Both the position numbers and the translations under genes were made by a program. Shown piece after piece: positions 10,699 to 24,421 of a DNA stretch of 33,808 nucleotides. Within the stretch, counting starts at the first letter, position 1. Each line of letters starts with the position of its first letter. The stretch lies in the NCBI GenBank assembly GCA_040753555.1, contig JBFMDZ010000006.1, forward strand, positions 1 to 33,808, read 5' to 3'. Under the pieces are notes generated by a model. It saw nothing but the letters and a program-made list of their open reading frames with translations. It ran no database searches and was not told the origin of the DNA. The stretch comes from a bacterium (GTDB lineage: Bacteria; UBA9089; UBA9088).

Positions 10699-11124
10699 GT
10701 GCAAGCAATAGTTGAGCTTATAAGGGGGCTTTGGATTACATTTTGCCATTTATGGACAAGGCATGTTACAATCCAATATCCAAGGGAAAGAAAGCCTGTA
10801 GCACAAAGGTTTAGGGGTCCTACAAGGCTTCTTCTTTCTGACAACGAAATTGAAAAATGTGTTGCCTGTTGCCTTTGTGCCCAATATTGCCCATCTGGGT
10901 GTATAAAAATATCGGCATTTGAAGACGAATCTCATAACAAGAGGCTTTTATCGTATGAGATTGATATAAAAAGGTGCATCTTCTGTGGATTATGTATAGA
11001 AGCCTGTCCAAAGGAGGCAATAAAGCAATCAGAGATTTATGAGCTTGCGTGTTTAGATAAAGATGAGATGGTCTATTCAAAGGAGACCTTGATTAAAGAG
11101 CCTTTTGTTCAAAAATACAAATGA
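10699..11124 (+). CDS. nuoI: NADH-quinone oxidoreductase subunit I (2x 4Fe-4S)
   Basis: A 141-residue ferredoxin-like subunit of the complex I peripheral arm that carries clusters N6a and N6b. Two full 4Fe-4S motifs are visible: Cys54, 57, 60, 64 (C-V-A-C-C-L-C-A-Q-Y-C-P) and Cys93, 96, 99, 103 (C-I-F-C-G-L-C-I-E-A-C-P). The N-terminal amphipathic G-L-W-I-T-F and the Y-P-R-E-R-K-P segment are typical. The start is GTG 10699. It is the first gene of its transcript, separated from nuoH by three small ORFs, although nuoH normally precedes nuoI directly. The stop overlaps the next ORF (ATGA). nuoA-G and nuoL-N are not in the window. Confidence 0.95.
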   Translation: MQAIVELIRGLWITFCHLWTRHVTIQYPRERKPVAQRFRGPTRLLLSDNEIEKCVACCLCAQYCPSGCIKISAFEDESHNKRLLSYEIDIKRCIFCGLCIEACPKEAIKQSEIYELACLDKDEMVYSKETLIKEPFVQKYK

Positions 11125-11453
11125 AAGAGAGAATAATTCAACAAGGATGGGATGTTGAGGATGCCTTTTTTGGGGCATTGCTAGGAGCTGTGTTTGGGAT
11201 TGTTATTCAGGAAAAAGAATGGTACATTTTTCCCATTTTAATAGCATTTTTAGGGGTGGTTGTTTTTTATTTAAAGAAACATTTCACCCTTCCAAAAGGA
11301 TTAAAAAGACAGAGAGCAATTGGTAAGCTTTTGATGGGTATTATACTTACTTCCATTTCCTTATGGATTTCAGGAGTTTTTACTCTACATCATTCTTCTT
11401 GGTTAGGAATTACTATTATTGTCTGGGTCATATTAAAATTTATCAAAAATTAG
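11121..11453 (+). CDS. Hypothetical membrane protein, four predicted helices
   Basis: A 110-residue protein not recognised as any family. Four hydrophobic stretches fit membrane helices: about residues 15-30 (A-F-F-G-A-L-L-G-A-V-F-G), 34-52, 68-86 and 91-108. A basic loop (K-K-H-F-T-L-P-K-G-L-K-R-Q-R) separates helices 2 and 3, so it would lie in the cytoplasm. The ATG overlaps the nuoI stop (ATGA), which implies translational coupling and co-expression with complex I. It is too short for and unlike NuoA, NuoJ or NuoK, so it is not a displaced complex I subunit as far as can be seen. A role in assembly or an accessory antiport helix would be speculation. Confidence 0.75.
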   Translation: MKERIIQQGWDVEDAFFGALLGAVFGIVIQEKEWYIFPILIAFLGVVVFYLKKHFTLPKGLKRQRAIGKLLMGIILTSISLWISGVFTLHHSSWLGITIIVWVILKFIKN

Positions 11454-11630
11454 ATGGAAATCATTGGTTGTTTATGTATTATTATTATAACAATTTATCT
11501 CTATGTAGATATTATCTTTGATTTTAGCTTGGAAGAGGTAATTATCAAGCATATCAAGTATATCTTGTGGCCAAAAAAGGTGATTATGCGGCATTACGAT
11601 ATTCTTAAGGAGGTGGTCTGTGGTATATAA
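11454..11630 (+). CDS. Small membrane-anchored ORF, 58 residues
   Basis: The ATG at 11454 immediately follows the previous stop (TAGATG) and the frame is open for 58 codons to TAA 11630, overlapping the next gene by 11 nt. Residues 4-22 form one hydrophobic segment rich in Ile and Cys; the rest is charged (S-L-E-E-V-I-I-K, W-P-K-K-V-I-M-R-H). Tight head-to-tail spacing in a compact operon supports translation. The AAGGAGG ribosome-binding site of the next gene lies inside this ORF. No family is recognised. Confidence 0.5.
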   Translation: MEIIGCLCIIIITIYLYVDIIFDFSLEEVIIKHIKYILWPKKVIMRHYDILKEVVCGI

Positions 11631-11988
11631 TTACGATAAATCTTTTGGCCCAGTAATAGATATTGTAATTTCTAATCCCTCCACAGGAAAGGAGGCTATT
11701 TGTAGGGGTCTTATTGCTCCAGGATGTCAAATGACCGCTATTCCCAAAAAGATTGTAGACTTATTGGATTTAAAATCTTTTTCTTCAATACCAACAATGG
11801 CTTTGTTTGGAACTGCCAAAACCCCAGTTTATCTAATAAACCTATCTATTGCCAATCTTGCTTTAAACCTTAATGTCCTATCTTTTGAATTACAAGACAT
11901 AGTCCTGGTTGGAAGGGATATTTTGAACAAATTTGTCATTACCCTTGATGGAAAGAGGGGGATTTGTGAAATTAAGGAGGAAGAATGA
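11620..11988 (+). CDS. Retropepsin-like (clan AA) aspartic protease fold protein lacking the catalytic Asp
   Basis: 122 residues from GTG 11620 behind a strong AAGGAGG site. The order of features is that of small bacterial clan AA retropepsin-like proteins: a beta hairpin, then G-L-I-A-P-G-C-Q-M-T-A-I-P-K-K where relatives have L-I-D-T-G-A followed by I-P, then G-T-A-K-T-P-V-Y-L, and V-L-V-G-R-D-I-L-N-K-F near the C-terminus. The D-T-G triad is A-P-G here (residues 33-35), so the essential aspartate is missing while the rest of the fold signature is kept. It is therefore probably inactive as a protease and may act as a binding or scaffold protein. The stop overlaps the nuoH start (ATGA), so it is translationally coupled to complex I. 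Family identification is by motif and fairly secure; function is unknown. Confidence 0.7.
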   Translation: MVYNYDKSFGPVIDIVISNPSTGKEAICRGLIAPGCQMTAIPKKIVDLLDLKSFSSIPTMALFGTAKTPVYLINLSIANLALNLNVLSFELQDIVLVGRDILNKFVITLDGKRGICEIKEEE

Positions 11989-13046
11989 ACCTATTATATG
12001 ACACAGAAAAACTGATTTCAATTATTTACAATTGGATGCAAGGGCTTTGCAAAACTCATAATATCCCAGATATTGCCTTGACGCTTGTCATTATGATAAT
12101 TGTTGGGGTTCTTGTTGCAGGCTTTGTCTCGGTAAATACCCTTTTCCTTGTGCTTGCCGAGAGGAAGGTCTCTGCTTGGATGCAGGACAGGCTTGGCCCA
12201 ATGAGGGTAGGACCCCAGGGGCTCCTTCAGACAGTAGCAGATGCCATTAAGCTCCTTCAAAAGGAGGATATTACACCATCCCCTGCAGATAAAATCCTCC
12301 ATTTTCTAGCACCTTTAATTATGTTTATCCCAGCAATAATGGCTTATGCTGTTATTTCATGGTCTCCTGGTATATATGCTGTTTCCCTTGATTTAGGGCT
12401 TTTGTACATCCTTGCCCTCTCTGCTATAGGAACAATAGGCATTGTTATTGCAGGCTTCTCCTCAGGAAACAAGTGGACGCTCCTTGGTGGAATGAGGTCT
12501 GCAGCTCAAATGATCTCTTACGAGGTTCCCCTTATTTTATCCTTTATTGGTGTAATTATGCTCAATGGCTCTTTAAACCTTAATTCTGTAATTGAATCTC
12601 AAAAAAATATGTGGTTCATTGTCTATCAACCAATTGGATTTTTGCTATTTCTGATAGCTGGTTGTGCAGAGGTAAACAGGGCTCCATTTGACCTTCCAGA
12701 AGCAGAGAGCGAGCTGGTGGCAGGTTTTCATACAGAGTATTCTGGAATGAAATTTGCCTTGTTCTTCCTTGGTGAATATGCAAATATGTTTATCTGTGCT
12801 TGTCTTGCGGCAACCTTGTTCCTTGGTGGATGGAATGGAATTCCTGGTCTTCCCTTTATTCTTCCTCCAATTGTTTGGTTTCTTATAAAGGCATATTTTA
12901 TAATATTTGTTATAATGTGGTTTCGCTGGACATATCCAAGAATAAGGGTTGACCAGCTTATGGGTTTTGGCTGGAAATTTTTAACACCCCTTGGCTTTTT
13001 AAATATAGCAATTACAGGGGTTATGATTTCATTGGGATGGATATGA
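11985..13046 (+). CDS. nuoH: NADH-quinone oxidoreductase subunit H
   Basis: A 353-residue multi-spanning subunit that joins the peripheral and membrane arms of complex I and forms part of the quinone chamber. Diagnostic segments are present: A-E-R-K-V-S-A-W-M-Q-D-R-L-G-P-M-R-V-G-P-Q-G, A-D-A-I-K-L-L-Q-K-E-D, R-S-A-A-Q-M-I-S-Y-E-V, N-R-A-P-F-D-L-P-E-A-E-S-E-L-V-A-G-F-H-T-E-Y-S-G, and the R-W-T-Y-P-R-I-R-V-D-Q-L-M end motif. About eight helices are evident. The start ATG overlaps the retropepsin-like stop, with GGAGGAAG upstream. A GAGTCRG tandem repeat separates it from nuoJ. Confidence 0.97.
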   Translation: MNLLYDTEKLISIIYNWMQGLCKTHNIPDIALTLVIMIIVGVLVAGFVSVNTLFLVLAERKVSAWMQDRLGPMRVGPQGLLQTVADAIKLLQKEDITPSPADKILHFLAPLIMFIPAIMAYAVISWSPGIYAVSLDLGLLYILALSAIGTIGIVIAGFSSGNKWTLLGGMRSAAQMISYEVPLILSFIGVIMLNGSLNLNSVIESQKNMWFIVYQPIGFLLFLIAGCAEVNRAPFDLPEAESELVAGFHTEYSGMKFALFFLGEYANMFICACLAATLFLGGWNGIPGLPFILPPIVWFLIKAYFIIFVIMWFRWTYPRIRVDQLMGFGWKFLTPLGFLNIAITGVMISLGWI

Positions 13047-13088: not shown

Positions 13089-13559
13089 ATGGAGGTGGGA
13101 TTTTATGTGTTGGGGGCTTTGGCGGTTTTTTCTGCTATGCTTGCCATTTCCTTAAAGAGCCTCATAAGGGCTGTTATGGCTCTCGCCCTATTTTTCATTT
13201 GCATAGGAGGATTGTATATAAATATGTCCTGTGAATTTTTAGGTTTTGTTCAAATCCTTATCTATGTTGGTGGCGTAATTGTTTTATTTCTATTTGTCAT
13301 TATGACATCAGGAAATATAGAGGCAGGGAAGTCAAATTGGATTTTAAGGATATTCGGGCTTTTAAGCTCTTTACTTTTATTTTTAGCCCTTGTTTGGGGA
13401 TTTAAGAAAAAACCATTTATCCTTACAAAACAAGGATTTTCTGGAATAAGGGAAATAGGAGACCTTATTATGACACAATATCTTATTCAATTTGAGGTTG
13501 TATCCCTTCTTTTGCTTGTTGTTTTAATTGGAGCAATTGTGCTTTTGAAAAGGGAATGA
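13089..13559 (+). CDS. nuoJ: NADH-quinone oxidoreductase subunit J
   Basis: A 156-residue membrane subunit with five predicted helices. The family motifs L-K-S-L-I-R-A-V-M-A-L-A, Y-I-N-M-S-C-E-F-L-G-F-V-Q-I-L-I-Y-V-G-G-V-I-V-L-F-L-F-V-I-M and the late V-V-S-L-L-L-L-V-V-L-I-G-A-I-V-L segment are clear. Slightly shorter than E. coli NuoJ, as in many anaerobes. The stop overlaps the nuoK start (GAATGAA). Confidence 0.95.
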   Translation: MEVGFYVLGALAVFSAMLAISLKSLIRAVMALALFFICIGGLYINMSCEFLGFVQILIYVGGVIVLFLFVIMTSGNIEAGKSNWILRIFGLLSSLLLFLALVWGFKKKPFILTKQGFSGIREIGDLIMTQYLIQFEVVSLLLLVVLIGAIVLLKRE

Positions 13560-13843
13560 ATTACATTTTGCTTTCTGCGATTATTTTTTGTATAGGGCTA
13601 TATGGAGCCTTATCAAGAAAGAATGGAATTATGGTTCTTATCTCAATTGAGATAATGCTAAATGCTGCCTGTCTTAACCTTGCTTATTTTTCATCATTTT
13701 ATAATCCAGCTGGTCAAATATTTGCCCTGTTTGCTATTGTTATCTCTGCAGCCTGTGTTGGCTGTGGCCTTGCAATATTCCTCCTTGCCTTTAGAGAAAA
13801 GGAAAAGATAGACCTAGATTCCTTCAATCTCCTCAAGGGATAA
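13556..13843 (+). CDS. nuoK: NADH-quinone oxidoreductase subunit K
   Basis: A 95-residue, three-helix antiporter-like subunit, normal length. The signature G-L-Y-G-A-L-S-R-K-N-G-I-M-V-L-I-S-I-E-I-M-L-N-A-A-C-L-N-L-A is present, with the conserved membrane glutamate in S-I-E, and a second acidic position in L-A-F-R-E-K-E. It overlaps nuoJ by 4 nt. The proton-pumping subunits L, M and N that usually follow are absent; plsX begins 10 nt downstream. Confidence 0.95.
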   Translation: MNYILLSAIIFCIGLYGALSRKNGIMVLISIEIMLNAACLNLAYFSSFYNPAGQIFALFAIVISAACVGCGLAIFLLAFREKEKIDLDSFNLLKG

Positions 13844-24034: not shown

Positions 24035-24421
24035 TTAATTTCGGGATTGGGGATTCGGGATTGGGGATTGGTGTTTTAAGCTTTGGATTAAACGATTTAA
24101 CATCCTTCCTATACTTTCTATCTCTCTTTGTATCCCTTCTAAAATTTCTATCTGAATATAATTTAGTTTTTGGGAAATAATTAGGTGTGTATCCAATTCC
24201 ATAAGAGAACCCCTAGCTATTATCAGAAACTGAATATATTCCTTGGTTGAGCTTCTACCCCATCCTTCCGCAATATTTGCTGGAATTGACACAACAGATT
24301 TTTGAATCTGGGAGGTCAACCCATATCTTTCTTCCAAAGGAAAAGATTTGGTTATTTTATATATCTCTATCACCAAATTTATAGCCTTCTTCCATACTTC
24401 CAATTCCTTATAATTCTTCAT
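24035..24421 (-). CDS. Four-helix-bundle protein (S23 / 23S rRNA intervening-sequence family)
   Basis: 128 residues. Begins N-Y-K-E-L-E-V-W-K-K-A-I-N-L-V-I-E-I-Y-K-I-T-K-S-F-P and contains the family core Y-G-L-T-S-Q-I-Q-K-S-V-V-S-I-P-A-N-I-A-E-G and E-Y-I-Q-F-L-I-I-A-R-G-S-L-M-E-L-D-T-H. The family includes ORFs in rRNA intervening sequences and relatives of the Avd accessory protein of diversity-generating retroelements. No template repeat or reverse transcriptase is present here, so an Avd role is not supported. The last nine residues (P-I-P-N-P-Q-S-R-N) are encoded by a GGGATTG-type heptamer repeat, and another repeat in inverted orientation precedes the gene. It interrupts an otherwise tight operon between HK2 and the REC-PAS kinase. 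Confidence 0.88.
   Translation of the reverse strand: MKNYKELEVWKKAINLVIEIYKITKSFPLEERYGLTSQIQKSVVSIPANIAEGWGRSSTKEYIQFLIIARGSLMELDTHLIISQKLNYIQIEILEGIQREIESIGRMLNRLIQSLKHQSPIPNPQSRN
24042..24071 (+). repeat. NGGGATT heptamer tandem repeat (four copies), downstream flank of the four-helix-bundle gene
   Basis: Four tandem heptamers alternating CGGGATT and GGGGATT. They form the 3' end of the four-helix-bundle coding sequence on the minus strand. The same family is present in inverted orientation at 24432-24462. Confidence 0.88.

Follow-up and report, generated by a model that had tools for sequence, protein, structure and literature searches.

The retropepsin-like gene and its neighbours

The window analysed here is a 33,808-nt stretch of bacterial DNA that contains a nuo operon on the forward strand. 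Three small genes lie between the host genes nuoI (positions 10,699–11,124; two 4Fe-4S) and nuoH (11,985–13,046; PF00146, E = 1e-122). The first, m110 (11,121–11,453), encodes a membrane protein of 110 amino acids with about three hydrophobic segments, and the second, tm58 (11,454–11,630), a single-pass membrane protein of 58 amino acids. The third, which we call RP (11,620–11,988), encodes a retropepsin-like protein of 122 amino acids and has a GTG start codon that lies within an 11-nt overlap with tm58. Downstream of nuoH follow nuoJ (13,089–13,559), nuoK (13,556–13,843), plsX and fabH. Two features elsewhere in the window were also noted. Two overlapping open reading frames at 127–937, in different frames, look like a single frameshifted membrane protein gene, and a gene at 24,035–24,421 on the reverse strand encodes a 23S rRNA-intervening-sequence four-helix protein (PF05635, E = 2e-41) and is flanked by two histidine-kinase genes.

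The original prediction, which was made from the sequence of the window, described RP as a dead retropepsin with a strong ribosome-binding site, coupled to nuoH. These signals were confirmed. An AAGGAGG ribosome-binding site is located at 11,607–11,613, 6 nt before the GTG at 11,620, the reading frame is intact, and the RP stop codon (TGA, 11,986–11,988) overlaps the ATG of nuoH (11,985) by 4 nt (ATGA, 11,985–11,988). The ribosome-binding site of nuoH, also AAGGAGG, lies within the last codons of RP (11,974–11,980). The predicted landmarks of the protein are likewise correct to the residue: a degenerate catalytic triad A33-P34-G35 (codons GCT-CCA-GGA, 11,716–11,724), I41-P42 after the active loop, and G98-R99-D100-I101-L102 near the end. 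The hydropathy profile of RP shows no strongly hydrophobic segment.

The window genome belongs to a bacterial family for which only two other genomes are available, G001 from the same genus and G002 from another genus. The gene order nuoI-m110-tm58-RP-nuoH is common to all three (the window genome, G000, and these two). The G001 orthologue is 54–55% identical to RP and the G002 orthologue 42–43% identical, and each is located between tm58 and nuoH. Their alignment shows slight in-frame differences in length around the N-terminus and the flap of RP. Codons 95–122 (11,902–11,985), which span the GRDIL motif and the C-terminal strand (ITLDGKRGICEIK), are near-invariant across the three orthologues. 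A scan of contigs recovered one orthologue, L009, which is the G002 locus itself. No close RP orthologue was found beyond the family among 386 relatives, and a scan of viral contigs found no relatives of RP. Each of the three family genomes has tm58, and m110 is confined to these RP-carrying genomes and absent from all others among the 386 relatives. In other families of the phylum, nuoI and nuoH are adjacent (10–250 bases apart in L059, L062, L063 and L064) or split by other guest genes. Insertion of the cassette is thus a trait of this family.

RP is related to retropepsins

The NCBIfam clan_AA model (TIGR03698) matches RP with an E-value of 4.2e-7 and 30.2 bits, below its curated cut-off of 57.35. 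The window RP alone has no match in a Pfam search, so its kinship is visible only through its relatives. The sister-species orthologue exceeds the cut-off of the Pfam RVP model (27.7 versus 20.7 bits), and a profile of the three RP orthologues matches a profile of 25 Asp-keeping retropepsins of the phylum over 115 columns with a probability of 99.4 and an E-value of 1.3e-21. Among solved structures, this 25-member profile in turn matches Ddi1, ApRick of Rickettsia, ASPRV1 and HIV proteases at E-values of 1e-9 to 1e-6. A direct comparison of the window RP with solved structures was set aside in favour of this profile route, as it gave only matches to leucine-rich-repeat and ribosomal proteins, which we attribute to chance. 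The hydrophobic-G-R/N-D/N motif that precedes the C-terminal strand of retropepsins is present as VGRDIL at residues 97–102, of which GRDIL is invariant among the orthologues. On this evidence from sequence comparison RP is a true relative of the retropepsins (clan AA), with a kinship beyond chance, in agreement with the identity proposed for it. A retropepsin fold is predicted for RP by homology; an AF2 model of the window RP, built from a two-row alignment only (the window sequence and L009), had a pLDDT of 41.

Loss of the catalytic motif

Profile searches returned about 180 retropepsin matches in 19 genomes of the phylum, including 22 in the window genome. We fetched 152 distinct retropepsins, and in the 146 with a readable active site the motif was DTG in 98, DSG in 42, DTE in two, DPG in two, DIG in one and APG in one. 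The APG sequence is the window RP, which has the sole site without an Asp among the 146 readable sites of the 19 genomes. RP thus lacks the D-T/S-G of active retropepsins, and the catalytic Asp is gone, replaced by Ala33 as predicted.

The two orthologues keep the Asp. G001 has D-P-G, and G002 has D-S-G, as does L009. The family thus displays a stepwise loss of the motif, from D-S-G in the other genus through D-P-G in the same genus to A-P-G in the window. The Pro of the loop is a trait of the genus, with the Ala so far limited to the window genome. The original prediction asked whether orthologues in nuo operons also lack the Asp; the change of Thr or Ser to Pro is common to the genus, whereas the loss of the Asp is known from the window genome alone. 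Because these orthologues at the same position keep the Asp, the result comes close to the single-genome mutation that the original prediction had named as evidence against itself.

The Ala could also reflect variation between strains or a mistake in the assembly, in a species that carries D-P-G. At codon 33, Asp (GAT) and Ala (GCT) are one substitution apart, and the Ala was read from this one assembly, a draft genome of 332 contigs. Against this, the frame around the Ala is intact and the neighbouring Pro is common to G001, so that the loop was already non-standard. We consider an error or variant of this kind improbable.

Selection acts on the C-terminal part of RP

Codon likelihoods were computed by script over the three orthologues, and with only three RP-carrying genomes the estimates of omega for single branches are rough. 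For the whole gene omega is 0.35 over the three taxa and a value of 1 is rejected (2ΔlnL = 26). RP is thus a real protein gene, as shown by the purifying selection on it taken as a whole. Residues 95–122 have an omega of 0.11 overall and of 0.14 on the window branch, where 1 is again rejected (2ΔlnL = 14), so that part of the protein is still under purifying selection in the lineage without the Asp, as the prediction of a protein kept in frame implied. Residues 1–94 have an omega of 0.57, with 0.91 on the window branch versus 0.47 elsewhere, a difference that is marginal under a shared clock (2ΔlnL = 3.5) and significant with gene-specific branch lengths (2ΔlnL = 7.9). The omega of m110 also rises on the window branch in the shared-clock fit, and part of the effect may therefore belong to the entire inserted cassette. 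In the flap, omega between the window and G001 is about 0.97, which is neutral, compared with 0.02–0.13 in active retropepsins of the phylum, of which five pairs were diverged enough for measurement.

The main rival to a retained function is plain decay, under which RP would have no job and its frame would owe its survival to the recency of the loss and to the help that translation of RP to its end gives in bringing ribosomes to nuoH. The near-neutral evolution of residues 1–94 on the window branch, the stepwise erosion of the motif and the in-frame variation in length around the N-terminus and the flap are all consistent with decay, as is the coupling geometry, with the ATGA overlap and the nuoH ribosome-binding site inside RP. 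The probability of an intact RP frame by drift alone is about 0.03–0.10. Decay does not account for the low omega of residues 95–122 on that same branch. Conservation of these residues as a by-product of the nuoH ribosome-binding site was ruled out, since 17 of 27 third positions in them differ from G002, and G002 does not keep the internal ribosome-binding site and yet has the same C-terminal residues. The constraint on the C-terminus of RP acts on amino acids. It is normal for the fold and by itself no proof that the dead protein has a function. We regard plain decay as possible and on the whole rather unlikely. The new non-enzymatic role that the original prediction suggested is not settled, given that orthologues at the same position have D-P-G and D-S-G and that about three quarters of RP is near-neutral, contrary to what a newly optimised scaffold would show.

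RP falls in a clade mostly paired with DUF5678 genes

A tree and two-profile scoring divide the phylum retropepsins between two clades, one with 25 members and one with 127. A DUF5678 gene is directly upstream of 19 of the 25 members of the first clade and of none of the 127 outside it. The window group falls in the 25-member clade, with support of 97/91 for its eight-row subset. No DUF5678 gene was found in the 420 nt upstream of RP in G000, G001 or G002. This suggests that RP was orphaned from its DUF5678 partner on or before its entry into the nuo operon. A DUF5678-like gene, as judged by eye, is also upstream of retropepsins in genomes of other phyla (L007, L115 and L117). The function of the DUF5678-retropepsin pair seems to be undescribed in the literature that we searched.

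The second D-P-G retropepsin of the phylum (L092:3027–3440, in G016) adjoins a CpaB-like gene and is possibly another inactive enzyme. The idea that both D-P-G retropepsins lack DUF5678 was dropped, since this one carries the partner.

Housekeeping operons of the phylum host retropepsin genes

Throughout the phylum, housekeeping operons harbour retropepsins and, in addition, MNT-HEPN modules as guest genes. Operons that host retropepsins include those for nuo, CODH, ribosomal proteins, trp and plsX. At nuo loci they are found between nuoD and nuoE (L062 and L063), after nuoK (L058 and L061) and near nuoH in G010 (L067). They flank NuoF-type genes in L083, L094, L102, L126, L158 and L164, and one follows CODH in L103. 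Eleven retropepsins lie no more than 2.5 kb from a NuoF-type domain, of which there are about 60, against an expected number of about 1.2; this excess is no more than suggestive, since the 11 represent only about five orthologous positions.

In the window genome, a D-T-G retropepsin (L070:2522–2890, reverse strand; G000:C170) sits between rplX and rplE, abutting rplX and overlapping rplE by about 8 nt. Two retropepsins are fused in frame to other domains, one to an MNT nucleotidyltransferase with a HepT-like gene next to it (L058:12507–13412, in G018), and one to a DUF5618 domain (L085:1671–2516; G000:C39), hinting at a link between retropepsins and toxin-antitoxin-type modules. The nuo operons of L058, L060 and L061, which come from other families, contain MNT-HEPN pairs and HicAB-like and RelBE-like genes between nuoI and nuoH, between nuoJ and nuoK and after nuoK. 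Tandem retropepsin arrays occur in L186 (G000:C2:23320–25370; three copies, spaced about 849 bases) and L139 (G001:C48:249–2118; at least four copies).

As retropepsins are guests in so many operons, the nuo location alone does not argue for a complex I role. Nothing else links RP to the function of complex I. The nuo location was also rejected as the cause of the loss of catalysis, since the other retropepsins in nuo-type operons keep a standard Asp motif, with the exception of the D-T-E of L126. A further alternative is that RP is still a protease, acting through another residue on a Nuo subunit or on m110 or tm58. RP does adjoin nuoH, and nuo-type operons of the phylum repeatedly contain retropepsins, but the flap of RP drifts neutrally and we know of no clan AA enzyme that works without its Asp, and we consider this highly improbable.

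RP as a proposed non-catalytic remnant constrained at its C-terminus

From the homology, the stepwise motif loss, the synteny, the absence of DUF5678 and the pattern of constraint, we infer an order of events, translation of RP, dimerisation and a residual binding role as follows. RP would descend from the retropepsin clade whose usual working partner is a DUF5678 protein, the product of the gene directly upstream. In the family ancestor, a partnerless copy and two small membrane-protein genes would have arrived between nuoI and nuoH, with RP initially of the active D-S-G type at this locus. The Ser/Thr of the loop would have been lost first, giving D-P-G in the ancestor of the genus, and the Asp next, giving A-P-G in the window species. 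The A-P-G form is predicted to be unable to act as an aspartic protease by itself, as it supplies no Asp and has Pro in place of the loop Thr/Ser. It would still be translated, in step with nuoH, as a small and probably dimer-forming or binding protein. Its flap and the half with the active site drift, and selection still holds the C-terminal strand, which in retropepsins forms the dimer platform. This reading, an orphaned remnant without catalysis in which selection maintains the C-terminal dimer strand, is the one we favour, at about an even chance of being correct.

In retropepsins, the active site spans the dimer, with each of the two subunits contributing one Asp at the interface, and the termini form the dimer platform (PMC12239564). 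A dead RP could therefore dimerise with another retropepsin of the cell, which has about 21 besides RP, and block or tune it. The 22 retropepsin matches in the window genome provide candidate partners, the constrained part of RP is its dimer-side C-terminus, and a paralogue from the RP clade that has D-T-G is encoded at G000:C5. This paralogue is just 29% identical to RP and its co-regulation with RP is without support, and the family orthologues are of the active type, which would make inhibition a recent role. That RP is such a built-in inhibitor or half-partner of retropepsins in the same cell, acting through the dimer strand under the control of a respiratory operon, strikes us as unlikely.

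RP is a bacterial retropepsin caught in the process of losing catalysis, with the intermediates alive at the same locus in sister genomes, so that the sequence of losses, and which features persist once the active site is gone, become testable. Perhaps more important is the wider setting: one small phylum yielded 152 distinct retropepsin genes, many of them in housekeeping operons, with two fusions (MNT and DUF5618), and its DUF5678-paired and solo clades separate cleanly. Our literature searches found no account of this.

Comparison with known systems

Aspartic-protease folds without activity are known from the pregnancy-associated glycoproteins, which are catalytically dead relatives within family A1; these belong to the two-lobed pepsin family and are found in animals. 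The best family model for RP and its orthologues is that of the prokaryotic clan AA aspartic proteases (pSNCAPs; TIGR03698/COG5550), with which they share a length of about 120 amino acids, an N-terminal strand, the active loop and the hydrophobic-G-R-D-I-L motif. RP differs from them in scoring below the family cut-off, in lacking both the catalytic Asp and the Thr, and in having no DUF5678 gene upstream. RP resembles the DUF5678 (PF18929)-retropepsin pairs in that most proteins of its clade are encoded by the second gene of such a pair, whereas in the three family genomes m110 and tm58 are located upstream in place of the partner. RloA and RimB of Pseudomonas are, like RP, bacterial relatives of retropepsins (PMC12239564, PMC11957791). 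The RloA proteins form dimers whose interface holds the active site and a beta-sheet platform (PMC12239564). Unlike RP, with its A-P-G and its lack of a strongly hydrophobic segment, both RimB and the RloA proteins retain DTG, and RloA is a secreted protein.
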